A stretch of 38,773 nt of DNA, from contig CALMIC010000301.1 in assembly GCA_937864065.1 (NCBI GenBank), positions 1 through 38,773 of the forward strand. Reading direction: 5' to 3'. Below the pieces are notes generated by a model. It was not told where the DNA came from. It searched no databases and saw only the letters and a list, made by a program, of their open reading frames with translations. A program made the position numbers and the translations under genes. This document shows, piece after piece, positions 7,814 through 38,773 of the stretch (the first letter of the stretch is position 1; each line of letters starts with the position of its first letter). The stretch is from an uncultured Cellvibrionales bacterium (lineage in GTDB: Bacteria > Pseudomonadota > Gammaproteobacteria > Pseudomonadales > UBA7239).

Positions 7814-9175
7814 TCACTGGATGACAACGCCAACATTATCAACCCAGCTGCCGAACAGCAAACCGGCGACAACGCTGAAAACCGCAACCAGCCCGACGTA
7901 GGACAAGGCCTTCCTGCGGCCGATCACGGCCGAAATCATCAGGATGCTCTGCAGGCTCAGTTCCGGGTCAGCCATCAGGTAGGCGAGCAAGGGGCCGGGA
8001 TGCATGCCGAGTTCGAGGAACATTTTTGCCACCGGCACTTCCACCAGCGTGGGGAAGTACATGAAGACGCCGAAGAAAACCGCGGTGAGGTTGCCCTGCA
8101 AATTGTTCTGGCCGGCCAGTGCCTCGATCCATGCCGGCTGGATGATCGCCCGCGCCATGCCAACCACGAATACGCCGGCCACCAGCAACAGGAATATCTG
8201 TTTGACGAAGCGCCACGCTTCCCACAACCAGGCTTGCCAGTCTTCCGCCGTGAGTTGCCTGGCGAAATAGATGACGGCCAGCATGGACGCTGCTTCTGCC
8301 AGCACGCGTCCGGTCAGGCCGATCACCAGGCCACTGCTGTCTGCTTTCACTGACAGGGTGGCAAAGAGCAGTGTCAGCGCAGTGAGCGCCAGTGTGAGCC
8401 AGGTCCAGCGGTTGGCGCCTTCGATGATGTTTTCCATGCCCTTCCAGGCGGTGATGCCGATCGCAAACAGCAGGGCGATCAACATGGAACCCTGGACGCT
8501 AACCCCTTCCTCGCCTTTGCTGGCGTCGAACGGCACCCACGCGAACAGCTGCGCCTGCCAGGCATCGGCGAATGACAGCGGCAAGGTGAACTGGAACAGC
8601 ACCGCGGACAACACACTCACTTTCAGTGTGCCGGCAATCAGCAACGTGACGAGTGACAGCAGTACGCCAGTCGCTGCAGCACCGATCACGGCTTTTTCGG
8701 CAAACATCGCGTCGGTATTGGCATCATGTTGCGCGTCATCCTTGTAAAACAGCATCGCCATGATCATGCCGATGCCGATGCCGAACAGCAGGCACAGCAG
8801 GAAACGCGCTGCAGCAAACTCGGGCCCCAGTACGCTGCCGGTGTAGGCGAGCGCCAGGATGTTGCCGGCGGGGGCGAAGAACAGGAAAGTCATCGCCGGG
8901 CCAATGCCGGCGCCCTTGCGATAGACGCCGGCAAACAGCGGCACGATGGTGCAGGAGCACACGGCAATCAGTGAGCCGGCGGCGGCAGCAGCCGGATACG
9001 AAATATAGCGCGGGGTGTGGCGCCCCAGCCAGCGTGTGATACTCGCTTTCGGGATCAGCGCAACCATCGCCCCGGCAATAAAGAAAGCGGGCAGCAGGCA
9101 TAGCAACACATGGGCGGCCAGATAGGCGGCGAGGTTACCAGCACCACTTTCTATAACCCGGATGAATGTTTCCAT
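7814..9175 (-). CDS. arsP: ArsP-type permease (DUF318 family)
   Basis: The 453-residue polytopic inner-membrane permease belongs to PF03773, whose characterised ArsP members export trivalent organoarsenicals. The first conserved half contains AVCSCTIVPLFAGVYRKGAG and FFAPAGNILALAYTG. The second repeats the theme with FFGVFMYFPTLVEVPVAKMFLELG and LLAYLMADPELSLQSI, the expected inverted-repeat architecture. About ten or more hydrophobic spans are present, split by a hydrophilic loop near DDAQHDANTD. The Cys pair in CSC is a likely metalloid contact. Close relatives are sometimes annotated as Cu/Zn efflux permeases (SO_0444 type). The ars context makes an arsenic role more likely here. Confidence 0.85.
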   Translation of the reverse strand: METFIRVIESGAGNLAAYLAAHVLLCLLPAFFIAGAMVALIPKASITRWLGRHTPRYISYPAAAAAGSLIAVCSCTIVPLFAGVYRKGAGIGPAMTFLFFAPAGNILALAYTGSVLGPEFAAARFLLCLLFGIGIGMIMAMLFYKDDAQHDANTDAMFAEKAVIGAAATGVLLSLVTLLIAGTLKVSVLSAVLFQFTLPLSFADAWQAQLFAWVPFDASKGEEGVSVQGSMLIALLFAIGITAWKGMENIIEGANRWTWLTLALTALTLLFATLSVKADSSGLVIGLTGRVLAEAASMLAVIYFARQLTAEDWQAWLWEAWRFVKQIFLLLVAGVFVVGMARAIIQPAWIEALAGQNNLQGNLTAVFFGVFMYFPTLVEVPVAKMFLELGMHPGPLLAYLMADPELSLQSILMISAVIGRRKALSYVGLVAVFSVVAGLLFGSWVDNVGVVIQ

Positions 9176-9203
9176 GCGAAGCCTCTTTTTCGTCTTTATA
9201 TCA

Positions 9204-9926
9204 TCAAATGGAACGCTGGTTTACGCGCTTCGATAATTCTTCCGCGCTTTCCTTGCGTTCGGAATAACGGTCGACCAGATAGTCGCTGCGGTCGCGCACT
9301 AACAGGGTAAATTTCACCAGCTCTTCCATCACATCAACAATCCGGTCGTAGTAGGCCGAAGGTTTCATGCGGTCATTGTCGTCAAATTCCAAAAACGCCT
9401 TGGCAACGGATGACTGGTTGGGAATGGTCAACATGCGCATCCAGCGGCCCAGCACGCGCAGCTGGTTCACGGCGTTGAACGATTGCGAGCCGCCGCATAC
9501 TTGCATCACGGCGAGTGTTTTACCCTGGGTCGGGCGCACAGCGCCGAGTGCCAGCGGAATCCAGTCGATCTGTGCTTTCATGATCCCCGTCATGGCGCCG
9601 TGGCGTTCCGGGGAACACCACACCTGCCCTTCGGACCACTGCACCAGTTCGCGCAATTCCTGTACTTTCGGGTGATCGGCCGGTGCGTCATCCGGCAGTG
9701 GCAAACCCGATGGATTGAAGATACGTGTGTCAGCGCCGAATGCTTGCAGGATACGGGCACTTTCCTGCACGACAAGACGGCTGAACGAGCGTTCGCGCAC
9801 TGAGCCATACAGCAGCAGGATGCGGGGTGGGTGGGTCGAGGCTGTTGCCGCAAAAATTTTCCGGGTGTCCGGTATGTCGATCAGTTCAGGCTGGATATTC
9901 GGTAATTCACTGAAATCATGGCTCAT
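9204..9926 (-). CDS. arsH: ArsH organoarsenical/NADPH-FMN oxidoreductase
   Basis: The 240-residue flavodoxin-fold protein is of the ArsH type. ArsH uses NADPH and FMN, and characterised members oxidise trivalent methyl- and aromatic arsenicals to less toxic pentavalent forms. The FMN phosphate loop is [13 protein letters not shown]. The family motifs [21 protein letters not shown] and [26 protein letters not shown] are present, and the length is standard. Its ATG overlaps the acr3 stop (ATGA), and arsP lies 28 nt downstream. Together arsH and arsP suggest this operon handles organoarsenicals as well as inorganic arsenic. Confidence 0.95.
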
Positions 9927-10960
9927 GCGTGTTTCCTCGCGCTGCCTTGCTCATACCAGCCCTTGCTGGCATTCACCACATTCACTACGGCCAGCATGAC
10001 TGGCACCTCGATCAGCACGCCGACGACGGTGGCCAGTGCGGCACCGGATTCAAACCCGAAGATGGAAATCGCAGCAGCGACGGCGAGTTCGAAAAAATTC
10101 GACGCCCCGATCAGGGCAGAGGGGCAGGCCACGTTGTGTGCTTCGCCGACAGTGCGGTTCAGCCAGTAGGCCAATGCTGAATTGAAAACCACCTGGATCA
10201 GGATCGGCACGGCCAGTAATGCAATCACCAGCGGCTGTTGGATGATGGCTTCACCCTGGAAGGCAAACAGCAGCACCAGCGTGGCGAGCAGCGCGGCGAT
10301 AGACCAGGGGCCGATCTTGTCCATCACCGCGTCAAACGAGGCCTGGCCATTCGCGAGCAGTTGCTTGCGCAAGGCTTGCGCGATGATGACGGGAATCACG
10401 ATATAAAGAATGACTGAAGTCAGCAGGGTGTCCCATGGCACGGTGATACTGGACATGCCGAGCAGGAAAGCGACGATCGGTGCAAAAGCGAACACCATGA
10501 TCGTGTCGTTGATCGCAACCTGTGACAGCGTGAACAGCGGGTGGCCGTTGGTGAGCTTGCTCCAGACAAACACCATCGCCGTGCACGGTGCGGCGGCCAG
10601 CAGGATCAGGCCGGCGATGTAGCTGTCGATCTGCTCAGCTGGCAGCAGCGGTGCGAACAGTTCGCGGATGAATAGCCAGCCGAGAAAGGCCATCGAGAAC
10701 GGTTTCACCAGCCAGTTGACGAACAGCGTCACGCCGATGCCGCGCACATGCTGGCGCATTTCTGCCAGCGCGCCGAAATCCACTTTCATCAGCATCGGGA
10801 TGATCATTACCCAGATCAGCAGGCCGACCGGCAGGTTGACGTTGGCGTATTCCATGGCGCCCACCGCCTGGCTAACACCCGGCAATAACTTGCCCACAGC
10901 AATGCCGGCGACGATACAGAAAAAAACCCACGCGGTGAGATGGCGTTCAAAAAAACTCAT
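9923..10960 (-). CDS. acr3: Arsenite efflux transporter Acr3
   Basis: The 345-residue inner-membrane carrier of the ACR3/bile-acid:sodium-symporter superfamily extrudes As(OH)3. About ten hydrophobic spans are visible. The functionally required cysteine is Cys126 in [14 protein letters not shown], and the conserved glutamate is Glu318 in [11 protein letters not shown]; both are intact. The [13 protein letters not shown] motif typical of the family is also present. It overlaps arsC and arsH by 4 nt at each end, so the operon is tightly coupled. In some annotations this gene is called arsB, but the sequence is ACR3-type, not the ArsB family. Confidence 0.96.
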
Positions 10961-27663: not shown

Positions 27664-28956
27664 ATGCTGAAGAAAATCCAGTCGCTGTTGGACCTTAAGG
27701 TCTACAGGTTCATGACGCTGACACTTGCAGGGATGGTGCTGTCACTGCTGGTGGATATGCTGGTATTCAAGAAATTTGGTGCCGGCACGATTGCAGACCT
27801 ATACGTGCTCATCAATACGATTCCCTTGATTCTTGAAGGAATAATCAGAGAAGGAACGCGTACGGCGTTGGTGCCGGTCTTTGCAGAATGCCGATCACAA
27901 AAGGGTGGAGATAGGCAGATCAGTGCAGTCATAAACCTGTCGGTTCTGGCTGGCTTTATCGTGATGATTGTCTTGTGGTCGTCAACGGGGCCTCTGGCGC
28001 AGGCATTAGCAACTGAACAGATGCGGCATGAACACTACGAGTTGCTGGAAAGTTGCCTTGGCTTGCTGCTTCTGATCATTCCTCTAGGGATAGTTGGGGC
28101 AGTGTTGGCGGCAATGCTGGTGCTGTGTGGGGAAAATGGCGCATTGGCCCAGCGAAATATCATTCCTCCCTTGTTTGCCATGGCAGTGATCGCATCGCAG
28201 GGGGATGTGACGATTGCAGGTGTAACAAAAGGCACTGTTGCCGGGTATGGAGCCTATATACTGTTCCTGGTTTACAAGATAAGAGGGAAAAACTTTGCCT
28301 ATGCGGTGGATGTGTTGCCGGATCGGCAGCTGCTCGACAAACTGTTGGGTGCAGTCACCTGGACTGTGCTGTCGATGGCGATCGGGCAGGGTGGGCGCCT
28401 GCTTGAACGTCTGGTGCTGACAAGGCTGGGAGTGGGCTTGTTGGCCAAATACTACATGGCTTTCAGGATAGTGGCTGCAATCCAGACCCTGGTTGGGCAC
28501 AGCTTTGCCGTAGTGGGTATCAACCGGCTGGTAAGGGAAAACACGGTGGCTATGCTGCTGAGAAACGTGAAAGCAGGATTCGTGCTGGCGGCGGCGGCAA
28601 CACTGGTAATCGAGGTGTTTGCCAAGGAAATCATTGTGCTGCTGTTTGGCGGAGAGGGAATGAGTCCGGTGGCCATCAACGAGGTGACTACGATCTTGAG
28701 GATCCTCGGGGTAGGGCTGGTGTGCCAGTGCCTGATTCCAATTCTCGAATTGCCCTTTTATACCGACAAGAAGACCTGGCTGGTGACGATTAATGCCTTG
28801 CTGATGTTTGTGCTGAAATTGCTGCTATTGTTGGCACTGGCCAGGATGTTGATGGCGGAAGGTGTGGCAATAGCTGCTACAGTTGCTGCCATAGCGGGAT
28901 GCGTGCTGCCGGCCATGTACATCTACAGACTAAAGAACAGAAAAAATGATGGTTGA
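27664..28956 (+). CDS. MurJ/MviN-like polysaccharide flippase
   Basis: The 430-residue inner-membrane protein has about twelve hydrophobic spans and belongs to the MOP exporter superfamily near MurJ/MviN. Indicative segments are KKFGAGTIADLYVLINTIP, IIREGTRTALVPVFAE (compare the MurJ motif around its essential Arg) and LLFGGEGMSPVAINEVTTILRILG. Within a locus with a polymerase and glycosyltransferases, it probably flips lipid-linked sugar units to the periplasm, like Wzx. It is shorter than housekeeping MurJ (about 510 aa). Codon use is noticeably more AT-tolerant than in neighbouring housekeeping genes, suggesting acquisition. It overlaps the polymerase gene by 11 nt. Confidence 0.82.
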   Translation: MLKKIQSLLDLKVYRFMTLTLAGMVLSLLVDMLVFKKFGAGTIADLYVLINTIPLILEGIIREGTRTALVPVFAECRSQKGGDRQISAVINLSVLAGFIVMIVLWSSTGPLAQALATEQMRHEHYELLESCLGLLLLIIPLGIVGAVLAAMLVLCGENGALAQRNIIPPLFAMAVIASQGDVTIAGVTKGTVAGYGAYILFLVYKIRGKNFAYAVDVLPDRQLLDKLLGAVTWTVLSMAIGQGGRLLERLVLTRLGVGLLAKYYMAFRIVAAIQTLVGHSFAVVGINRLVRENTVAMLLRNVKAGFVLAAAATLVIEVFAKEIIVLLFGGEGMSPVAINEVTTILRILGVGLVCQCLIPILELPFYTDKKTWLVTINALLMFVLKLLLLLALARMLMAEGVAIAATVAAIAGCVLPAMYIYRLKNRKNDG

Positions 28957-30151
28957 ATACATAGCGACATATGTCGCTATTACCGTGGTGTCATTGTGGT
29001 TGGATCGGAAAAGACCCGCTGCGAGCCCGGTCAAATTGTTCATGTTTGTTTTCTTGGTGTATTACGGCCTCGGGGCGCCGTTGTATGAGATGCTGTTCCC
29101 GCGGCAGCATATTGACACCAATTACTATTACACCCTGCTCGGCTATTCCGCTTGCTTGCTCAGCATGTTGGTATGGAGCCCGAAAACAGACTTCCGCGAT
29201 ATCCATTTTGATGGGTATAGTATCAGCAAGGGCTATATGTTGCTGTTCCTGGCCATGCTGGGCACCTTGGGTTTCACGACATTATGGATATGGCAAATCG
29301 GTGAAATTCCGATTTTCTCCAGTGACATAGAATACGCAAGGACAGTCAAGGCAGAAGGTACATACCATATTCGGCAGCTGACAACCCTGGCAGTGCCTGT
29401 TTACTACATGATGCTGGCTGTGGTGCTCAACAGGAAGCGAGCCTTGCTGGCGCTGATTCTTACTGGCCTGTTGCTGATAGGCTGTATTGCCTTGCAGGGG
29501 TACAGGACATTCTTTGTCAGTATTATTGCTGTCAGCGCCATGATTGCCTACAGGGTGCGAAAGGAACTGTTCAACGTGCCATTCCTGGTTTTGAGTGCGG
29601 TTGTGATGTTCCTTGCCAGTGTCGCGTATGGTTACAGCCGATACCTGTCTGGCATAACCACCGTCAAGAACATGATGAATGTTTATGAATACACCGCGCA
29701 GAATTTCTTTATCAGGACAACATCGCTGCAGCGTATCGTGGAATATTTCCCTGCGTCGGAGCCATACCAATACGGGTATTTCTACCTGCGCGGCTTCAAT
29801 TTCCTGATACCAGGCAAGCAGACGGGGCCTGGTGAGTGGCTCAAGAAAGAGGTTTTTAACCTGGATTTTGCCGGGGATGGCTTCAATCCTGGCATCATCG
29901 GCGAGTTTTATCTCAACTTCGGTGTGTTGGGCATCATTTTTGGCATGATGTTCTATGGTTTCATCATCACGGCGTCTTATGGCATGTTTGCCCGTGGCAA
30001 GAGCCCGGGCAAGCTGGTTTTCGGGGCCTGTGCCTACTTTTACATTTTGCTGGCAATGGCGCCGGGATTGGCGACCACGATTGTGATGCTGGTGTGGTAT
30101 GGATTGTTGATTTTCTTTTTTCAGTTGCTGTTCAGGGTCAGGATTCGCTGA
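28946..30151 (+). CDS. Wzy-like oligosaccharide repeat-unit polymerase
   Basis: The 401-residue polytopic membrane protein has about ten or eleven spans and large loops, in the style of O-antigen or exopolysaccharide polymerases (Wzy/EpsG/O-antigen polymerase class). A characteristic late loop, LNFDFAG-like DFAGDGFNPGIIGEFYLNFGVLG, followed by FGMMFYGFII, resembles the conserved polymerase region. Wzy proteins join lipid-linked repeat units on the periplasmic side. Assignment rests on topology, this loop and the gene context, since the family is poorly conserved. Lower GC than the rest of the window is visible. Confidence 0.75.
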   Translation: MMVEYIATYVAITVVSLWLDRKRPAASPVKLFMFVFLVYYGLGAPLYEMLFPRQHIDTNYYYTLLGYSACLLSMLVWSPKTDFRDIHFDGYSISKGYMLLFLAMLGTLGFTTLWIWQIGEIPIFSSDIEYARTVKAEGTYHIRQLTTLAVPVYYMMLAVVLNRKRALLALILTGLLLIGCIALQGYRTFFVSIIAVSAMIAYRVRKELFNVPFLVLSAVVMFLASVAYGYSRYLSGITTVKNMMNVYEYTAQNFFIRTTSLQRIVEYFPASEPYQYGYFYLRGFNFLIPGKQTGPGEWLKKEVFNLDFAGDGFNPGIIGEFYLNFGVLGIIFGMMFYGFIITASYGMFARGKSPGKLVFGACAYFYILLAMAPGLATTIVMLVWYGLLIFFFQLLFRVRIR

Positions 30152-30182
30152 CTGGATTGGACAGCCGGGAAACAGGGTTCAG

Positions 30183-31400
30183 ATGAATATCCTGAATATC
30201 CACCAGAAATACTATGCTTTTGGTGGTGCGGAAAAATATTTCATGTCCCTGGAGGCATTGTTAAAAAGCCATGGCCATCAGGTCATCCCCTTTGTAGCGA
30301 GGGATGACAGGAACCGGCCCAGTCCGTGGCAGGATTATTTCCCCTGGGGCAGCGACTTCGAACGGAAGAGCCTGCAAGACATACTTGGTTTTATCTACAG
30401 TCCTGCCGCCAGCAGGTCGCTCGATAGTCTGTTGGGCCATGCGGCGGTTGATCTTGCGCACCTGCATATCTACTACGGCAAGTTGACGGGATCAATATTG
30501 CCGGTACTGAAAAAGCGCGGCATTCCGGTGATACAGACGCTGCATGATTACAAGCTGGTATGCCCGGTTTACAGTTTGCAGCGACATGGCACGGACTGTC
30601 GCGACTGTAGCGGCGGCCACTTCTACCGCGGTGCTATGCACCGTTGCAACCGCGGGTCACTTTCGCGCTCATTGCTCAGTGTTGCTGAGATGTATGTGGC
30701 GCGCCTGCTGGGATCCATGGACAGTATCGACCGGTTCCTCTGTGTCAGCCATGCGCAGAAACGTATCTTGTGTGATATGGGCGTTCCGGCAGGGAAAATG
30801 ACCGTGCTGCACAACTTCATTGATGTGCAGGAATTCCAGCCGGAATATGCGGTGGGTGATTACCTGCTGTATTTTGGCAGGATGGAAAGGGTCAAGGGCA
30901 TATACACGCTGATCGAAGCCGCCAGACAGGCAGGGCAGACACTGGTGATGGCAGGTGATGGTGCGGAGCTGGAGAATATCCGCCAGCTGGAAGCCGCAGC
31001 AATCCGTGACGGCCGTTTGGTGCTGACCGGCATGCTGACCGGGCAGCCACTCAAGGATCTGGTGCGCAATGCTGCTTGTGTCGTGATCCCCAGTGAATGG
31101 GGGGAAACATTCGGCCTGGTCGCTGCCGAAGCGATGGCGAGTGGCAAGGCGGTGATTGCGGCCAATATCGGCGGCTTGCCGGAAGTGATCGAGGATGGTG
31201 TGACGGGCTATCTGTTTGAGCCAGGCAGTGTGGATGACCTGGTCGCGAAAATCCGCCAGCTGCTGTCAGATCCTGAGCGTGTCAGCAGCATGGGTGCTAA
31301 TGGCCGCCTGCGTGTTGAAAAACATTTCTCGCCACAGTCGCATTATGAAAAAATGAACAGTATCTATGCCGATGTCATCGGCAGTTCCCGTAACACCTGA
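30183..31400 (+). CDS. GT4 family glycosyltransferase
   Basis: The 405-residue GT-B-fold glycosyltransferase transfers a sugar from a nucleotide donor, probably to a lipid-linked glycan on the cytoplasmic face. The N-terminal acceptor domain has the glycine-rich GGAEKYFMSLEALL. The C-terminal donor domain starts around LLYFGRMERVKG and contains PSEWGETFGLVAAEAMASG, the E-x7-E type motif of family GT4, then GGLPEVIEDGVTGYLFEPG. A central Cys-rich insert (CPVYSLQRHGTDCRDCSGG and a later Cys) resembles that of several capsule GT4 enzymes. It lies 31 nt after the polymerase gene. The sugar is unknown. Confidence 0.9.
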   Translation: MNILNIHQKYYAFGGAEKYFMSLEALLKSHGHQVIPFVARDDRNRPSPWQDYFPWGSDFERKSLQDILGFIYSPAASRSLDSLLGHAAVDLAHLHIYYGKLTGSILPVLKKRGIPVIQTLHDYKLVCPVYSLQRHGTDCRDCSGGHFYRGAMHRCNRGSLSRSLLSVAEMYVARLLGSMDSIDRFLCVSHAQKRILCDMGVPAGKMTVLHNFIDVQEFQPEYAVGDYLLYFGRMERVKGIYTLIEAARQAGQTLVMAGDGAELENIRQLEAAAIRDGRLVLTGMLTGQPLKDLVRNAACVVIPSEWGETFGLVAAEAMASGKAVIAANIGGLPEVIEDGVTGYLFEPGSVDDLVAKIRQLLSDPERVSSMGANGRLRVEKHFSPQSHYEKMNSIYADVIGSSRNT

Positions 31401-31416
31401 CAGGCGTACAGCATTC

Positions 31417-32409
31417 ATGGTTGCCCAGATTGACCAGACCTACAAACGCTTCGGCTGGACAAAAGTCCTGCGCCGCCTGGTCTGCTACTTGCTGGAAGGA
31501 CGGCCGCTGACCACGCGCGGCCGTGCCCTCAATCCGCTGACGCGGTTCTTTCTCCAGCAGTGTTCTCGACCATTTGCCGGTGCTGCAGTAGACCGGCCGG
31601 TATTCATCCTGGGGATGGGGCGCAGTGGTACCACGTTCCTCGGCAATGCGATGTCTGTGCATCCGGCTGTTGCCTATTTCAATGAGCCCAAGCTGATGTG
31701 GAGCCTGGCATTCCCGCAAGACGATCTCGTCGGCAATTACGTGCTTGGCCCTGCCCGTTACCGCATGGATGAAGGCGGTGTTACCGAACAGGGTGCACGC
31801 GCCATCCGCGCGATGTATGCACTGTGCTGTGCCTGCACGCGCTCACCGCGCATCGTGGACAAATACCCGGAAATGATTTTCCGGCTGCCATTCCTTGCGC
31901 AGATTTTCCCGGATGCCCGCTTTGTGGCCATCGTACGCAGCGGGCATAACGTTATCCGCTCGGTCGCCTCATGGAACCGCCGCAATGCCATTGAGCTGGA
32001 TGGCTCGAGGGAAAACTGGTGGGGGCTGGATGACCGGAAATGGCATTTCCTTTGCGACCAATTACTACCAGGCCATCCTGATTTTGCCGCCCATGTCGAT
32101 ACCCTCCGTGCGATTACCGATGATACACAACGCTCGGCTATCGAATGGATACTGACGATGGAAGAAATCGCCGCGCGCCAGGCGCAATGGGGTGACAAAC
32201 TGTTCGTTATCCGTTACGAAGATCTTATGAATGACACCGCTGTGTCAGTCGATAACCTGACCGCATTCTGTGGTTTGCGACAGGATCGCAGCATCCTGGA
32301 ATATGTAGAGGCTGCGAAGGATTTTTCCCCTGAAGTTGCATCCTGTGAGCTTCCTGATTTCATCCAGGCTCCCTTTGATCGCATGATCCGGCATTTCGGT
32401 TATCGCTGA
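31417..32409 (+). CDS. PAPS-dependent sulfotransferase family protein
   Basis: The 330-residue soluble protein has the sulfotransferase 5'-phosphosulfate-binding loop FILGMGRSGTTFL (P-loop at about residues 66-73). Downstream is the 3'-phosphate region FPDARFVAIVRSGHNVIRSVASWNRR, with the conserved Arg and Ser. It would transfer sulfate from PAPS to a hydroxyl, here probably on a sugar of the polysaccharide built by its neighbours. The start MVAQIDQTYK follows the GT4 stop by 16 nt; a longer frame beginning at 31366 overlaps that gene and lacks support. Its stop overlaps the next glycosyltransferase start as TGATG. Confidence 0.88.
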   Translation: MVAQIDQTYKRFGWTKVLRRLVCYLLEGRPLTTRGRALNPLTRFFLQQCSRPFAGAAVDRPVFILGMGRSGTTFLGNAMSVHPAVAYFNEPKLMWSLAFPQDDLVGNYVLGPARYRMDEGGVTEQGARAIRAMYALCCACTRSPRIVDKYPEMIFRLPFLAQIFPDARFVAIVRSGHNVIRSVASWNRRNAIELDGSRENWWGLDDRKWHFLCDQLLPGHPDFAAHVDTLRAITDDTQRSAIEWILTMEEIAARQAQWGDKLFVIRYEDLMNDTAVSVDNLTAFCGLRQDRSILEYVEAAKDFSPEVASCELPDFIQAPFDRMIRHFGYR

Positions 32410-33524
32410 TGGCTGCTTCTCCTGCACAACAGCGACAACTGCTGATTGCCGGTATTCGCGGGGTGCCGGCGGCCCATGGCGGCTTCGAGACCTTTGCCCA
32501 TGATTTTGCCCTTTACATGGTCGATCGCGGCTGGCAAGTCACGGTTTTTTGCCAGGAAGTCGGCAAGTTTGCCGTGGTTCGCGATGACTGGTGTGGCGTG
32601 CAACGGGTCAGGATTTCCCTGCCGGCGGATAACCAGGTTTCCACCATCCTGTTTGACCTGGCGAGTACTGTGTTGGCTCTGCGTATGCCTGGCAAGGTGT
32701 TAGTGCTGGGTTACAACACTGCGGTGTTTTCCTTGCTCTACAAGCTCTTCGGTCGTTTCAGTGCAATGAACATGGATGGTGTCGAGTGGAAGCGGGCAAA
32801 GTGGGGGCGCCTGGCCAAGGCCTGGTTCTATCTCAACGAAAAATTCGGCACCTGGTTTTCTGACCAGCTGATTGCCGATCACCCGGGCATCCGGCGCCAT
32901 TTGCTGGGCCGGCAAACGGATGACAGCAGGATCACCGTCATTCCCTATGGCGCCCGCCGGGTCGACACGGCTGATGCTGCGCTGCTCACCCCTTATGGTT
33001 TGCAGCCTGGCGGCTATTGCATCCTGATTGCCCGGCCCGAGCCGGAAAACAGCATCCTCGAGATCGTGCGGGCGTTTTCCCGCCGCAAGCGGAAGCTGCA
33101 GCTGGTCGTGCTTGGCAACTATGTGCAAGGCAATGCCTACCACGATGCCGTGAGGGCGGCTGCCTCGGATGAAGTGATGTTTGTTGGCGCCATCTATGAC
33201 AAGCCTGTCGTCGAGTCGCTGCGCTTCCACAGCCTGTTCTACCTGCACGGCCATACCGTTGGTGGCACCAATCCGTCACTGGTCGAGGCACTCGCTGCCG
33301 GTTCGCCGGTCATTGCCCACGATAACGAATTCAACCGCTGGGTGGTCGGTGAGCAGGCTGGATTGTATTTTGCGAACATCGAGCAGTGCGACCAGGCCAT
33401 TACAGCGCTGTGCGGGGATCCGGCGCAATGCCGTGCCCTAGGCGAGGCCGCCCGCATCCGCCATGGCGAAGTATTCACTCTGGAAGCTGTGCACGGTGCC
33501 TATGAGGCGCTGCTGTTGCGCTGA
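32409..33524 (+). CDS. DUF1972/GT4-type glycosyltransferase
   Basis: The 371-residue GT-B glycosyltransferase has the N-terminal DUF1972 signature found in bacterial rhamnosyl- and related sugar transferases: IAGIRGVPAAHGGFETFAHDFALYM. The donor domain includes ITVIPYGARRV, RPEPENSILEIVRAF, GHTVGGTNPSLVEALAAGSPVIAHDNEFNRWVVGEQAGLYF. This gives an E-type catalytic region (PSLVEALAAG). It starts on the sulfotransferase stop (TGATG), so the two are translationally coupled. Probable cytoplasmic-face assembly of the polysaccharide repeat; the donor sugar is unknown. Confidence 0.9.
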   Translation: MAASPAQQRQLLIAGIRGVPAAHGGFETFAHDFALYMVDRGWQVTVFCQEVGKFAVVRDDWCGVQRVRISLPADNQVSTILFDLASTVLALRMPGKVLVLGYNTAVFSLLYKLFGRFSAMNMDGVEWKRAKWGRLAKAWFYLNEKFGTWFSDQLIADHPGIRRHLLGRQTDDSRITVIPYGARRVDTADAALLTPYGLQPGGYCILIARPEPENSILEIVRAFSRRKRKLQLVVLGNYVQGNAYHDAVRAAASDEVMFVGAIYDKPVVESLRFHSLFYLHGHTVGGTNPSLVEALAAGSPVIAHDNEFNRWVVGEQAGLYFANIEQCDQAITALCGDPAQCRALGEAARIRHGEVFTLEAVHGAYEALLLR

Positions 33525-34375: not shown

Positions 34376-34391
34376 CTTACTCGCGAGTAAG
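34376..34391 (+). promoter_or_regulatory. Perfect 16-bp palindrome, candidate TetR operator
   Basis: The sequence CTTACTCGCGAGTAAG is a perfect palindrome ending 8 bp before the tetR ATG. Length, symmetry and position fit an autoregulatory operator for the encoded TetR protein controlling the tetR-activator-corrinoid-methyltransferase operon. CTTGCAT also occurs on both sides of it (34363-34369 and 34395-34401). Confidence 0.7.
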
Positions 34392-34399
34392 ATACTTGC

Positions 34400-35056
34400 A
34401 TGTCAGTAAGTCAAGCCAGCAACCTGCCCCCCCGCCGCACCACCCTCAAGGCGGACGAAACGCGCGAAATGATCCTCGGCGCGGCGGAGCTGCGCTTTGC
34501 CGCCAAGGGTTTCTACCCGACGCGGCTGGAGGATATCGCCGAGGACGTTGGCATTACGCGTACAGCGATCATCTACCATTTCCAGGACAAGGAAACCCTG
34601 TACAACGCCGTGCTGGGAAAGCTCTTCACCCAGCTCAATGACAGGATAGTGGCTGCCCTGGCCTTGCCGGCGAGCCTGCCGGAGCGGGTGGAGGCGGCCG
34701 TGGAAGCCTGGCTTGATTTCGCCGGTGAGCGCCCCGCCCTGATGCGCCTGTTCATGCGTGAAGTGGCCGGATCCGAAGGCGGCCTGCGGCCGGAGGTGCA
34801 GCGCTATGTCGAGCCGATGTTCGCGCGCCTGATTGCAGCCCTGGGCGAAGGGCAACAATCCAGCGCCTTCCGCGTCATGGATCCGGTGCAGTTCTGGTCC
34901 ATCCTCGCTGGCGCGTCGATGTTTTTCATCATGGATGCCCCTTTGCTGGCCGGGGGTGAAAACAATGCTGTGCTGGAGGCTTTCCGCTTGCAGACCTATA
35001 AACAGGAGCTGAAGCGTGTGGCCCGCCAGATGCTCGGAGTGGAAGACAAGTCATGA
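34400..35056 (+). CDS. TetR family transcriptional regulator
   Basis: The 218-residue TetR/AcrR-type regulator carries an N-terminal helix-turn-helix, AAKGFYPTRLEDIAEDVGIT with RTAIIYHFQDKETLY (about residues 33-70). The C-terminal ligand domain is of the TetR_C type with no recognisable specificity. The ATG overlaps the palindromic region and the stop overlaps the next start (ATGA), so it is the first gene of the corrinoid methyltransferase operon and probably its local repressor. The inducer may be the methylated substrate; this is inference. Confidence 0.93.
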   Translation: MSVSQASNLPPRRTTLKADETREMILGAAELRFAAKGFYPTRLEDIAEDVGITRTAIIYHFQDKETLYNAVLGKLFTQLNDRIVAALALPASLPERVEAAVEAWLDFAGERPALMRLFMREVAGSEGGLRPEVQRYVEPMFARLIAALGEGQQSSAFRVMDPVQFWSILAGASMFFIMDAPLLAGGENNAVLEAFRLQTYKQELKRVARQMLGVEDKS

Positions 35057-37131
35057 GTGATGTGGAAAAGTTTGAAGTGCTGTTCCTGCCGTCCGGCCAC
35101 AAGGGCCGTTTTGCTGCTGGCACGCACTTGCTGGATGCTGCGCGGGAGCTGGGCGTCGGCATCGAGTCGATCTGCGGTGGCACCGGTGCCTGCGCCAAGT
35201 GCAAGTGCCAGGTGCTCGACGGCACTTTTGATGATGAAGGCCATGAATTGTCGATGGGCCATATGGTCACCGCAGCAACCCGCCATGGCATGCGCTCGCG
35301 CGAGAGTCATGTCACCGCGGCCAGCGAGCATGAACAAAGGCTGGCGCGCAAGCACCACTTCAAGAACAGCGAAAGGCTGAGTTGCCAGGCGCGCGTGCTC
35401 GGTGATGCCGTGGTATTCATCCCGGAAGAAGCGCGCGTGCGCGAAGCCATCGTGCGCAAGGCAGCCGGCAAGCCGGTTGCGGTGCGTGACTTGGTCACAC
35501 GCAAGTACTTTGTCACCGTGCCGGCACCGACACTGGAAGACCATCGCGGCGACTGGGAGCGGTTGCGCGATGCGCTGAAGGCTGAGCATGATGTCGAGGC
35601 GGATATCGATTTCATGGCACTGAAGCAGTTAAGCGACATGGCCAAGCCGCAACGCGCCAAGGTCATGCAGCTGACAGCGACTGTCTGGCGCCAGGATCCG
35701 CAATGCAAAGGCGAGGTGGTGCGCATCGAGAACGGCGATACGTCGGGCACCTTGCTCGGGCTGGCCGTCGACCTCGGTACGACGACCATGGCGTCCTACC
35801 TGTGCGACATGCACACCGGCGAGACCATCGCCACCGAGTCGGTGATGAACCCGCAGATCAAGATCGGCGGCGACGATGTAATGAACCGCATAGCGGCCAG
35901 CGACAATCCAGAAAAACTGCACCGCATGCAGAAAGCGGTGACTGGCGCGCTGTCGGAACTGGCTGACCGTGTGACGCAATCCGTCGGTTACACCGCGGCA
36001 GATATCAGCGAGATCGTGCTGGTAGCCAACACCTGTATGCACCATATTTTCCTGGGCCTGGATCCGGATTCGCTGGGCAAGTCGCCCTTCAATCCGCGCA
36101 TTGCCCATTCCGTGAATATCAAGTCGCGCGACCTGCATCTCGCGCATGTGTTGCCATCGATCAATGTGCATCTGCTGGCGAACCAGGCCGGCTTTGTCGG
36201 CGCCGACAACACGGCAGTTGCGATAGCGCTCGAACCATATAACTCCGACGAGCTGGTGGCGATTGTCGATATCGGCACCAACGGCGAGATTCTGGTCGGC
36301 AATCGCGACAGGATCTATTCCACGTCATGCCCGACCGGGCCGGCACTGGAAGGCGCCAGCATCAAGTACGGCGTTCGCGCTGCACGCGGTGCTATCGAGA
36401 AAGTGCGCATCGAACCAAAGACTTTTGACGTGCGCTTCAAGGTCATTGGCAAGGAGGCCTGGAACACACGCCTTGAACCGTCGGACATCGGTGCCATCGG
36501 CCTGTGCGGTTCCGCCATCATTGACACGGTCGGCGAGTTGTACAAGGCAGGCATCCTGGCTGCCAACGGCAAGTTCAACATGGAAATCGAGACGCCCCGC
36601 TTGCGGCGTGGCGAGGACGGTGATGCGGAGTTTGTCATTGCCTGGGCGGCGGAGACGGCGATCGGGCGCGACATCACAATGACAATCGACGATGTGCGTA
36701 ACGTGCAGCTGGCCAAGGCGGCTGTCTACTCCGGCATCCAGGTGCTGCTCGACAAGCTGGGTCGCGACAAGCCGGAGAGGGTCATCCTGGCCGGGGCTTT
36801 CGGTTCGCACCTGGACCTGCGCCGCTCGCTGATGCTCGGCCTGTTCCATGATGTCGGCTTCGAGCACATGCATTCGGTCGGCAACGCGGCCGGGGACGGG
36901 GCGCGTATGGCGCTGATGAACCGGGCCAAGCGTGAGGAAGCCGAGCACATCGCCCGCCGTATCCATTATGTCGAGTTGACCAACGAGCCGGGCTTTGTGC
37001 CGCACTTCGTCGACGCGACCCTTTTGCCCCACAAAAAACATGCATTTCCGTCGCTGGCGCGGTATGGTATTGACCCCGCGCCGCCCCCGGCGGAAACACG
37101 CAAGCGCCGCCGCGACCGCGCTGCGGCCTGA
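35053..37131 (+). CDS. Reductive activator of corrinoid enzymes (2Fe-2S/ASKHA, DUF4445)
   Basis: The 692-residue protein combines an N-terminal plant-type [2Fe-2S] ferredoxin domain with a C-terminal ASKHA ATPase fold. Cys41, Cys47 and Cys50 lie in SICGGTGACAKCKC, with a later Cys in the C-terminal half of that domain. ASKHA motifs include LAVDLGTTTMAS, the second phosphate loop VAIVDIGTNGEILVG, LCGSAIID and VILAGAFGSHLDLR. This is the RACE architecture, which uses ATP to drive reduction of inactive Co(II) corrinoid to Co(I). It overlaps tetR by 4 nt and lies 38 nt before the corrinoid protein gene. The C-terminus is a basic tail, KRRRDRAAA. Confidence 0.93.
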   Translation: MSDVEKFEVLFLPSGHKGRFAAGTHLLDAARELGVGIESICGGTGACAKCKCQVLDGTFDDEGHELSMGHMVTAATRHGMRSRESHVTAASEHEQRLARKHHFKNSERLSCQARVLGDAVVFIPEEARVREAIVRKAAGKPVAVRDLVTRKYFVTVPAPTLEDHRGDWERLRDALKAEHDVEADIDFMALKQLSDMAKPQRAKVMQLTATVWRQDPQCKGEVVRIENGDTSGTLLGLAVDLGTTTMASYLCDMHTGETIATESVMNPQIKIGGDDVMNRIAASDNPEKLHRMQKAVTGALSELADRVTQSVGYTAADISEIVLVANTCMHHIFLGLDPDSLGKSPFNPRIAHSVNIKSRDLHLAHVLPSINVHLLANQAGFVGADNTAVAIALEPYNSDELVAIVDIGTNGEILVGNRDRIYSTSCPTGPALEGASIKYGVRAARGAIEKVRIEPKTFDVRFKVIGKEAWNTRLEPSDIGAIGLCGSAIIDTVGELYKAGILAANGKFNMEIETPRLRRGEDGDAEFVIAWAAETAIGRDITMTIDDVRNVQLAKAAVYSGIQVLLDKLGRDKPERVILAGAFGSHLDLRRSLMLGLFHDVGFEHMHSVGNAAGDGARMALMNRAKREEAEHIARRIHYVELTNEPGFVPHFVDATLLPHKKHAFPSLARYGIDPAPPPAETRKRRRDRAAA

Positions 37132-37169
37132 ACCAGAAGCTTCCACAATCACAGCGACAGGAGACTGTT

Positions 37170-37823
37170 ATGGATCAAAATGATATTGCCGAAATTGCCG
37201 AGCTGATTGCCGACCTGGATGACGAGGCGATCGAGCTGGTGCAGGAGTGTCTCGATGCGGGCCTCGATCCGGTCTCCGTACTGAAAGACGGTGTCGTCAA
37301 GGGGCTGGAAAAAATCGGCCAGCTGTTCGAGGCCAAGGAATACTTCCTCGCCGAGCTGATGGTGGGTGGCGAGCTGGCCGAGAACTGCATCAAGATCATC
37401 AACCCACACCTGCCGAAATCCGGCGAAGGTGACCGCCAGGGTTGCGTGGTCATCGGCGCGGTAGCCGGCGACCTGCACGACATCGGTTATGGCCTGGTCG
37501 CCAAGCAGCTGGAACTCGCCGGTTTTGAAGTGCACCAGCTCGGCGTCAATGTCGATGCGATGGATTTCATCAACGCGGCAAAAGACAAGAATGCCAATAT
37601 CATCGGCTTGTCAGCCTTCCTGGTGACCACGATCCCGAATTGCCGCGACGTGGTCAACTATGTGCGCGACATGGGCCTGCAGGATCGTTTCAAGGTCATC
37701 ATGGGCGGTGCGGAAACCAACCAGGAGAAGTCCGACATGATGGGCGCTGACGGTTGGGCTCCGAACGCAATGGAAGCAGTAACCCTCTGCAAGAACATCA
37801 TGGCAGCACACTTCGGGAGATAA
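37170..37823 (+). CDS. Methyltransferase cognate corrinoid protein
   Basis: The 217-residue protein has an N-terminal four-helix B12-binding-2 (cap) domain (residues 1-90, containing VKGLEKIGQLFEAKEYFLAELMVGGELAE). A C-terminal Rossmann domain carries the base-off/His-on motif DLHDIG (Asp101, His103, Gly106) and a later SAFLVTTIPNC and GGAETNQEKSDMMGADGWAPNA. This is the MtmC/MttC-type corrinoid protein that receives methyl from a substrate methyltransferase and passes it on. AGGAG precedes the ATG. It is 3 nt upstream of the methyltransferase gene, so they probably form one functional pair. Confidence 0.95.
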   Translation: MDQNDIAEIAELIADLDDEAIELVQECLDAGLDPVSVLKDGVVKGLEKIGQLFEAKEYFLAELMVGGELAENCIKIINPHLPKSGEGDRQGCVVIGAVAGDLHDIGYGLVAKQLELAGFEVHQLGVNVDAMDFINAAKDKNANIIGLSAFLVTTIPNCRDVVNYVRDMGLQDRFKVIMGGAETNQEKSDMMGADGWAPNAMEAVTLCKNIMAAHFGR

Positions 37824-37826
37824 GAC

Positions 37827-38773
37827 ATGGCTGGCAAACTGTTGGACATCATGGAATTCCAGGGCCGCGCGGAAACCGGCGAGGTCATCGAGAAGTCAAG
37901 CAAGTTCGATATCAAGTGGTCGCGCGTATTGCGCAAGGCTGCCGAAGAATTTGGCGTGAAGTACACGCCAGACAGCACCGTTATTGATGACGCAACCGCT
38001 GATGGCGTATTCAATGCTGCCGTCAAGCTGTTGTCCGAGTGTGGCATCTACCACAACAATACCTTCCGCGTGATTTCACTCACGGAGCAGGAAATCCGCG
38101 ATACCGCCGAGTACTACAGCTCGAATCCGCATGTGTCGAAATTCGGCCAGGGCGATGACCGCATCGAGTACACCTACCGCAAGGCTTTCGAGAAAAAAAT
38201 GCCTATCCTGGCGGGTGGCCCATGCGGTGTTATCGGCGAAGAGTGGCACGATGCCTATATCCGCTCGTTCGTGAAGGAAAAAACCAACCTGGCGATGGGT
38301 ATCACCGGCGGTATCGAGGTGATCCACGGTCACTCGGCCAAGGCTGGCACCCTGTCGGAAATGTATGCCGCCCAGTGGGAGTGTGCGCAGATCCAGCGCA
38401 TCTGTCGCGAGGAAGGTCGTCCTGGCATGCACCAGGGCCTGCTGTGTACGGCATCGTCTGCCGCAGCATCCTTTGCCTGTATTGATGACCACAACCCTGA
38501 TCGCCGCAAGACCTGGAACACCCAGATCGGCATCCACATCATTCCGGAAATGAAGATCGACTGGAACGCGTTCCAGATGGCGAAGTTCTGCCAGGATCGC
38601 GGCATCGAGCCGTGGACTTCCTGTGTGTCGCTGACCGGCGCGCTGTGCCGCGACGGTGCCGAGACGGCTATCGGTATCGTCTGTAATGCCCTGGCGCAGC
38701 TGGCCTACGGCCACGGCGGCATGGTGCAGATGTTTGCCAACCACCTCGACGGCACCTGGTCTGACCAGGAAAC
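37827..38773 (+). CDS. MtmB-like corrinoid methyltransferase (3' end cut by window)
   Basis: 315 complete codons are visible before the window ends; no stop is present. The sequence resembles the monomethylamine:corrinoid methyltransferase family (PF05369). Shared features are LLSECGIYHNNTFRVISLTEQEIRD near residues 70-90, an EEGRPGMHQGL block near 195, CIDDHNPD, and a later NHLDGTW. No UAG occurs in frame. Archaeal MtmB carries pyrrolysine in FGG-Pyl-AGG; the aligned stretch here is near SLTGALCRDGAETA (Ala272, Leu273, Cys274). It is therefore a non-pyrrolysine homologue, and its methyl substrate need not be monomethylamine. It starts 3 nt after the corrinoid gene with GGGAGA upstream. Confidence 0.85.
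   Translation, partial: MAGKLLDIMEFQGRAETGEVIEKSSKFDIKWSRVLRKAAEEFGVKYTPDSTVIDDATADGVFNAAVKLLSECGIYHNNTFRVISLTEQEIRDTAEYYSSNPHVSKFGQGDDRIEYTYRKAFEKKMPILAGGPCGVIGEEWHDAYIRSFVKEKTNLAMGITGGIEVIHGHSAKAGTLSEMYAAQWECAQIQRICREEGRPGMHQGLLCTASSAAASFACIDDHNPDRRKTWNTQIGIHIIPEMKIDWNAFQMAKFCQDRGIEPWTSCVSLTGALCRDGAETAIGIVCNALAQLAYGHGGMVQMFANHLDGTWSDQE

Follow-up and report, generated by a model that had tools for sequence, protein, structure and literature searches.

What does a compact corrinoid methyl-transfer operon do in a gammaproteobacterium that appears to respire oxygen, and to which acceptor would its methyl groups pass? We approached this question from a window of 38,773 nucleotides, the entire contig of a fragmented MAG (G000; 2.57 Mb in 323 contigs, 91% complete, 7.3% estimated contamination), and from three further Pseudomonadales/Cellvibrionales MAGs of the same family (G001, DDBK01000163; G002, JANQLY010000004; G003, JAGRJA010000130), two of which (G002 and G001, loci L015 and L016) hold a complete mtmB-like gene along with tetR and the operator. 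As the sequence-only reading of the window had proposed, four genes follow one another in tandem on the + strand: a TetR-family regulator of 218 aa (34400-35056; PF00440, E 1.7e-10, and PF17938), RACE, an ATP-dependent reductive activator of corrinoid proteins of 692 aa (35053-37131; PF00111, PF17650, PF17651 and PF14574), a corrinoid (cobalamin-binding) protein of 217 aa (37170-37823) and the N-terminal 315 aa of an MtmB-family substrate:corrinoid methyltransferase (37827-38773). The first two genes overlap by 4 nt, a gap of 38 nt separates RACE from the corrinoid gene, and 3 nt lie between the corrinoid gene and its mtmB-like neighbour. RACE carries its [2Fe-2S] domain at the N-terminus and its ASKHA domain at the C-terminus (Pfam matches Fer2, RACo_linker, Raco_middle and RACo_C_ter, E down to 4.7e-86), and both halves align with the solved RACo structure 3zyy (E 2.8e-99), including the CGGxGxCxKC ferredoxin motif. 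The profile comparison that the same reading had suggested bore it out for the two proteins that follow: the corrinoid protein matches PF02607 (B12-binding_2) and PF02310 (B12-binding), has the base-off DLHDIG motif and finds its closest solved relatives in 1y80 and the MttC chain 7xcn, and the methyltransferase matches PF05369 (E 2.2e-29) over profile positions 1-279 of 450, where the end of the contig cuts the gene. Structure prediction was of low confidence (pLDDT 32 and 36), and an Rfam search of the operon region returned no match, hence no cobalamin riboswitch. Just upstream of the operon (28946-33524), the window holds glycosyltransferase, sulfotransferase-like and polysaccharide-type genes that are absent from the relatives' loci; since this neighbourhood is not common to them, the conserved unit begins at the tetR operator.

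Heme-copper oxidase genes occur in all family genomes and Coq7, whose presence had been claimed, is indeed encoded on the window contig (22806-23462; PF03232), so that the gene content makes oxygen respiration by the host likely. Together with the four genes and the recurrence of the locus in all four family genomes, this sustains the description of a TetR-controlled corrinoid methyl-transfer operon in an oxygen-respiring gammaproteobacterium. Elsewhere in the window (7814-10960) lies an apparent arsenic cassette composed of an ArsP-type permease, an ArsH-like FMN reductase and a sodium/bile-acid-symporter (ACR3-like) permease. PF05369 was detected in 4/4 genomes of the family, which span three genera, and outside it in 1/388 other genomes of the order, 0/368 of the class and 0/398 of the phylum, samples that overlap, are not exhaustive and were drawn within the phylum; a search for named relatives among plasmids and viral contigs yielded no MtmB-like match. 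The GC content of the operon in G001 is 52%, matching its flanks. In G002 it is likewise 52% with flanks at 45%, and because operon and flanks differ there, the operon may have been imported separately into that genome.

Membership of the MtmB family did not extend to the use of pyrrolysine. When aligned with the pyrrolysine-containing MtmB of Methanosarcina (1nth, 1l2q; residues 3-457, E 1.7e-21), the MtmB-like protein places Gly204 of the window protein (codon at about 38436-38438) at the position of Pyl202, as do the three relatives and a distant homologue in G034, and Glu229 of MtmB likewise falls on a Gly. Neither an in-frame amber codon nor another internal stop occurs in the five PF05369 loci, and a search for PylS (TIGR02367) gave no match over the cut-off in the five genomes; stretches below the cut-off were found in these genomes and likewise in most control genomes, one control even exceeding it. 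On these three counts we rule out pyrrolysine use. The substrate enzyme is thus a PF05369 protein over the curated cut-off that lacks pyrrolysine and has its cognate corrinoid gene directly upstream. Nor does it belong to the plain MtgB type, which the sequence-only reading had named as an outcome that would overturn it: only PF05369 was matched, and PF06253 (MtgB/MttB superfamily, COG5598) was not. The homologue in G034, a genome of the same order (L026 397-3945), is 27% identical, also without pyrrolysine, and its gene adjoins those of a thymidylate-synthase-like/PterinBD-DUF4346 protein and of another TetR-like regulator; it represents a second kind of non-pyrrolysine MtmB locus, perhaps with another methyl acceptor.

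The module had been described as lacking its methyl acceptor, a gap that proved to reflect the end of the contig rather than a property of the operon, and the earlier suggestion to read further downstream was fruitful in the relatives. Their MtmB-like proteins are 84-85% identical to the portion in the window (G001, G002 and G003); G001 and G002 have the whole gene (458-460 aa, no internal stop), and the G003 contig begins within it. It is directly followed in each of the three by the gene of a PF00809-type methyltransferase of ~310 aa, which in both relatives tested exceeds the cut-off of NCBIfam NF005719 (methyltetrahydrofolate:corrinoid/iron-sulfur protein methyltransferase). The G001 protein has its best solved relatives in 4o0q and the AcsE-type 2yci, and shares the DSxNP, IDPLI and GLSNVS motifs with solved AcsE-type enzymes. 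On the basis that this gene follows in the relatives, the acceptor step is assigned to folate and the gap in the window to the assembly end. A search of the whole MAG G000 found the MetH domain only; we infer that the acceptor gene is nonetheless part of this genome. Substrate methyltransferase, corrinoid protein, activator and, as seen in the three relatives, the methylcorrinoid:tetrahydrofolate (THF) methyltransferase are therefore encoded together.

The promoter of tetR shares its operator sequence with that of a second set of genes. Operator 1 of the proposed TetR site, a perfect 16-bp palindrome (CTTACTCGCGAGTAAG, 34376-34391, + strand), ends 8 bp before the tetR start and is conserved in both relatives (L015 6419-6434, L016 6494-6509). 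A degenerate operator 2 (CTTGCATGTCAGTAAG, 34395-34410, + strand) lies 19 bp downstream of it and overlaps the tetR start codon. Both fall within ~45 bp of almost unchanged sequence in L015 and L016, with the other upstream DNA diverging. In L015 the frame opened by an ATG within operator 2 closes at a stop three codons later, and tetR itself begins further down; because the same 16 bp thus fall outside the tetR frame there, operator 2 is conserved as DNA and not as coding sequence. A search of the four whole genomes with the 19-bp pattern, allowing up to 2 mismatches, returned only the tetR promoters (G000, G001 and G002) and the promoters of a second operon beginning with metV (G001 and G002), and the 19-bp register is identical in all five tandem sites from these three genomes. 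Each of the five matches 27-28 of the 28 positions of the consensus, against 19 for the best unrelated site in ~1.28 Mb of DNA; as the consensus was derived from these same five sites, the evidence lies in the gap between the scores and not in their absolute values. In G003 the tetR region is not assembled beside mtmB, and no site within 2 mismatches was present. The regulator itself has the TetR_N DNA-binding domain and a conserved palindrome at its own promoter, and is 83% identical to its G001 and 62% to its G002 orthologue, features from which we predict that it represses its own operon and would bind, and repress from, the tandem operator. At its cut-off, a simple scan for promoters gave no sigma-70 site; a weak TTGCNT-N17-TAAGNT reading, overlapping operator 1 at each of the three tetR promoters, is no more than suggestive. 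No clear Shine-Dalgarno sequence precedes the tetR start where operator 2 overlaps it; in the window and in G001, tetR may be translated from a leaderless mRNA, while the gene in G002 starts downstream, at a GTG.

The second operon, preceded by the same tandem arrangement in G001 and G002, encodes MetV (PF12225), MetF (PF02219), a protein weakly resembling the MetH activation domain (E 0.002) and PurU (L066 8291-11374 in G002; L067 6984-11131 in G001). The G001 operon has an additional, acyltransferase-like gene behind metF, and its metF frame is broken by a stretch of uncertain bases. Directly upstream of the G001 metV operon sits a three-gene 2-oxoacid:ferredoxin oxidoreductase operon that could feed RACE with low-potential electrons, and in G002 a formate-THF ligase gene lies ~3.2 kb from tetR. 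The metV genes were not found in the ~0.88 Mb of the window's own MAG that was scanned, about a third of the genome, which would nevertheless be expected to carry them.

Taken together, we propose a TetR-repressed, folate-linked corrinoid demethylase operon, a reading to which we assign a probability of about 0.78. An effector, either the substrate or a metabolite, would release TetR from the tandem operator at the tetR promoter, and RACE, with ATP and its [2Fe-2S] cluster, would maintain the cob(I) form of the corrinoid protein. The MtmB-family enzyme would then move a methyl group from a methylated compound to the corrinoid, from which the PF00809 methyltransferase would hand it to THF; MetV and MetF would oxidise methyl-THF to methylene-THF, FolD, whose part we infer, would carry this on to formyl-THF, and PurU would release formate. 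A formate/nitrite transporter gene (PF01226; 18425-19303) that could export such formate lies 15 kb from the operon without an operator link. As the predicted regulon joins methyl capture to the oxidation of methyl-folate to formate, demethylation would be the implied direction. Against this reading, no transporter or substrate-specific gene adjoins the operon, MetF and PurU are also biosynthetic, so that co-regulation is no proof of catabolism, and methyl-THF could also feed methionine because MetH is present. Related corrinoid methyltransferases, moreover, can run either way (PMC7448270). By analogy with MtqB, a quaternary or otherwise N-methylated amine is the leading but weak guess for the substrate. 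More tentative, and in our estimate somewhat short of even odds, is the larger claim of an aerobic demethylation pathway, undescribed before and largely restricted to one uncultured Pseudomonadales family. In it, a non-pyrrolysine MtmB from a branch not yet studied would bring a new class of substrates within reach of corrinoid demethylation in oxic habitats, and one TetR would coordinate methyl capture with the oxidation of methyl-folate by means of operator pairs spaced 19 bp apart.

Choline-type compounds are common in natural waters and sewage, and in a narrower form of the demethylase reading the operon would encode an orthologue of Methanococcoides MtqB that demethylates choline or tetramethylammonium, which we regard as unlikely, if the best placed of the alternatives. 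MtqB is reported as the first non-pyrrolysine MtmB homologue whose function has been demonstrated, and homologues in proteobacteria are noted by its authors, but most of the roughly 1,000 non-pyrrolysine MtmBs have no known function (PMC13044021). In addition, the contexts examined show neither a quaternary-amine transporter nor a downstream dehydrogenase next to the operon.

The module might instead serve to methylate a steroid-like acceptor, with methyl groups passing from the C1 pool via the corrinoid to the substrate. This improbable reading has a precedent in EmtABCD, whose EmtA is a proteobacterial relative of MtmB that lacks pyrrolysine (PMC7448270); KshA-type oxygenases in G002, G003 and G034 suggest steroid breakdown, and TetR regulators often sense hydrophobic ligands. 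A steroid role is weakened, however, because KshA_C was not found in G000 or in G001 of the same genus (both incomplete MAGs), and both have the operon. Furthermore, an AcsE-type folate methyltransferase belongs to the operon, and the operator is common to MetV-MetF-PurU, which ends in formate, whereas the emt cluster has SAM-regeneration genes (PMC7448270), none of which we recognised by inspection beside the operon in L015 or L016. Demethylation is thus favoured over SAM-driven methylation of the EmtABCD kind because the regulon logic would match that of the aerobic chloromethane and MtgBCD systems.

Less probable still is a split methionine synthase or another C1-biosynthetic device, as formed by MtgC and MtgD in Roseobacters that lack MetH. 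In Ruegeria these proteins take part in making methionine as well as in demethylating betaine (PMC12478193). Two proteins of the present system also recall MetH: the folate methyltransferase does so in part, and the third protein of the metV operon bears a weak likeness to the MetH activation domain. Yet full-length MetH-like frames are present in G000 (1222 aa) and G002 (1231 aa; shorter elsewhere), which makes such a role unlikely, the operon has no homocysteine-binding gene, and a device of this kind would not need an MtmB-type substrate enzyme. Finally, we reject, as scarcely credible, the notion that the contig is a contaminant or misbinned piece from an anaerobe, an objection raised with the initial description and one to which the fragmentation and estimated contamination of the MAG (323 contigs, 7.3%) lend some colour, because the operon and the remaining contig both have a GC content of 60.2%, its GC3 resembles that of neighbouring genes, Coq7 lies on the same contig and orthologues exist in three other MAGs of the family, one of them on a 438-kb contig.

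The main new result is the tandem operator shared by the tetR and metV promoters, which offers a way to define the genes of a pathway ahead of its biochemistry. Relative to the open-licence literature, what is new is the combination of an MtmB-type substrate enzyme, a folate acceptor, an oxygen-respiring Pseudomonadales host and a TetR regulon; aerobic corrinoid/folate demethylation by MttB-type enzymes and CmuA was already known, as were non-pyrrolysine MtmBs in archaea (MtqB) and a denitrifier (EmtA). Most non-pyrrolysine MtmBs are functionally uncharacterised, MtqB having been shown to be a demethylase and EmtA assigned to estrogen methylation, and the system described here is compact, bacterial and oxygen-respiring, with five genes and, in the relatives, a co-regulated four-gene oxidation operon, and its substrate can be tested for directly. 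If confirmed, it would extend the 2025 finding of aerobic marine corrinoid demethylation from MttB-type to MtmB-type enzymes.

How does the operon compare with known systems, judged for MtqB, EmtA and AbeA by their descriptions and not by their sequences? From the pyrrolysine MtmB of Methanosarcina, a member of the same family, it differs by the Gly in place of Pyl202 and by having no pyrrolysine system. Non-pyrrolysine MtmBs are a recognised set (the tree in the MtqB paper comprises 1,061 pyrrolysine and non-pyrrolysine sequences; PMC13044021), and MtqB/MtqC of Methanococcoides methylutens Q3c, which demethylates choline and tetramethylammonium (PMC13044021), likewise pairs such a methyltransferase with a partner corrinoid protein. 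That system is archaeal and anaerobic and transfers methyl groups to coenzyme M, whereas the operon has a folate acceptor, an oxygen-respiring host, and RACE and TetR within the operon. EmtABCD of Denitratisoma methylates estrogens with SAM (PMC7448270), and AbeABC of Phosphitispora, described as 57% identical to EmtAB, demethylates androgens (PMC12507874). EmtA resembles the enzyme studied here as a proteobacterial MtmB relative without pyrrolysine whose neighbours include a corrinoid protein and a RACE-like activator; by contrast, the operon has an AcsE-type folate methyltransferase, an operator common with MetV-MetF-PurU and an inconsistent steroid oxygenase marker. A haloarchaeal plasmid, from Halomicrococcus (L036 5929-10635), carries a corrinoid methyl-transfer set made up of a corrinoid protein, an ASKHA activator, DUF1638 and an MtrH-like methyltransferase beside FAD-dependent oxidoreductases, with no annotated substrate methyltransferase nearby.

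The initial association of such modules with anaerobes was overstated, given that aerobic B12/folate demethylation is established (PMC12478193, PMC3621897) and that comparable loci with RACE, a folate methyltransferase and MetV-MetF occur on replicons of Paracoccus, Sinorhizobium and Azoarcus; what is unusual is the MtmB-type enzyme without pyrrolysine and the TetR regulon. MtgBCD of Ruegeria is an aerobic corrinoid/folate glycine-betaine demethylase (PMC12478193), and it and the related loci share with the operon the aerobic host, the corrinoid protein, the folate methyltransferase, the ASKHA/RACE activator and MetV-MetF, the Azoarcus locus also having PurU nearby, at component identities of about 31-39%. 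Their substrate enzyme, however, is MttB-type (such enzymes adjoin two of the three replicon loci) and that of the operon MtmB-type, and GlxA-type regulators adjoin the Paracoccus and Azoarcus loci. In the cmu pathway of Methylobacterium extorquens CM4, methyl groups go from a corrinoid to tetrahydrofolate and end as formate by way of FolD and PurU, and a MetF2 is dedicated to this route (PMC3621897). The proposed pathway would be alike in its aerobic corrinoid-to-tetrahydrofolate methyl transfer followed by folate-linked oxidation to formate; CmuA is a methyltransferase-corrinoid fusion of another family, plasmid-borne and specific for chloromethane, whereas here an MtmB-type enzyme is encoded apart from its corrinoid protein, and the MetF and PurU genes are linked to the module by the same tandem operator in G001 and G002.
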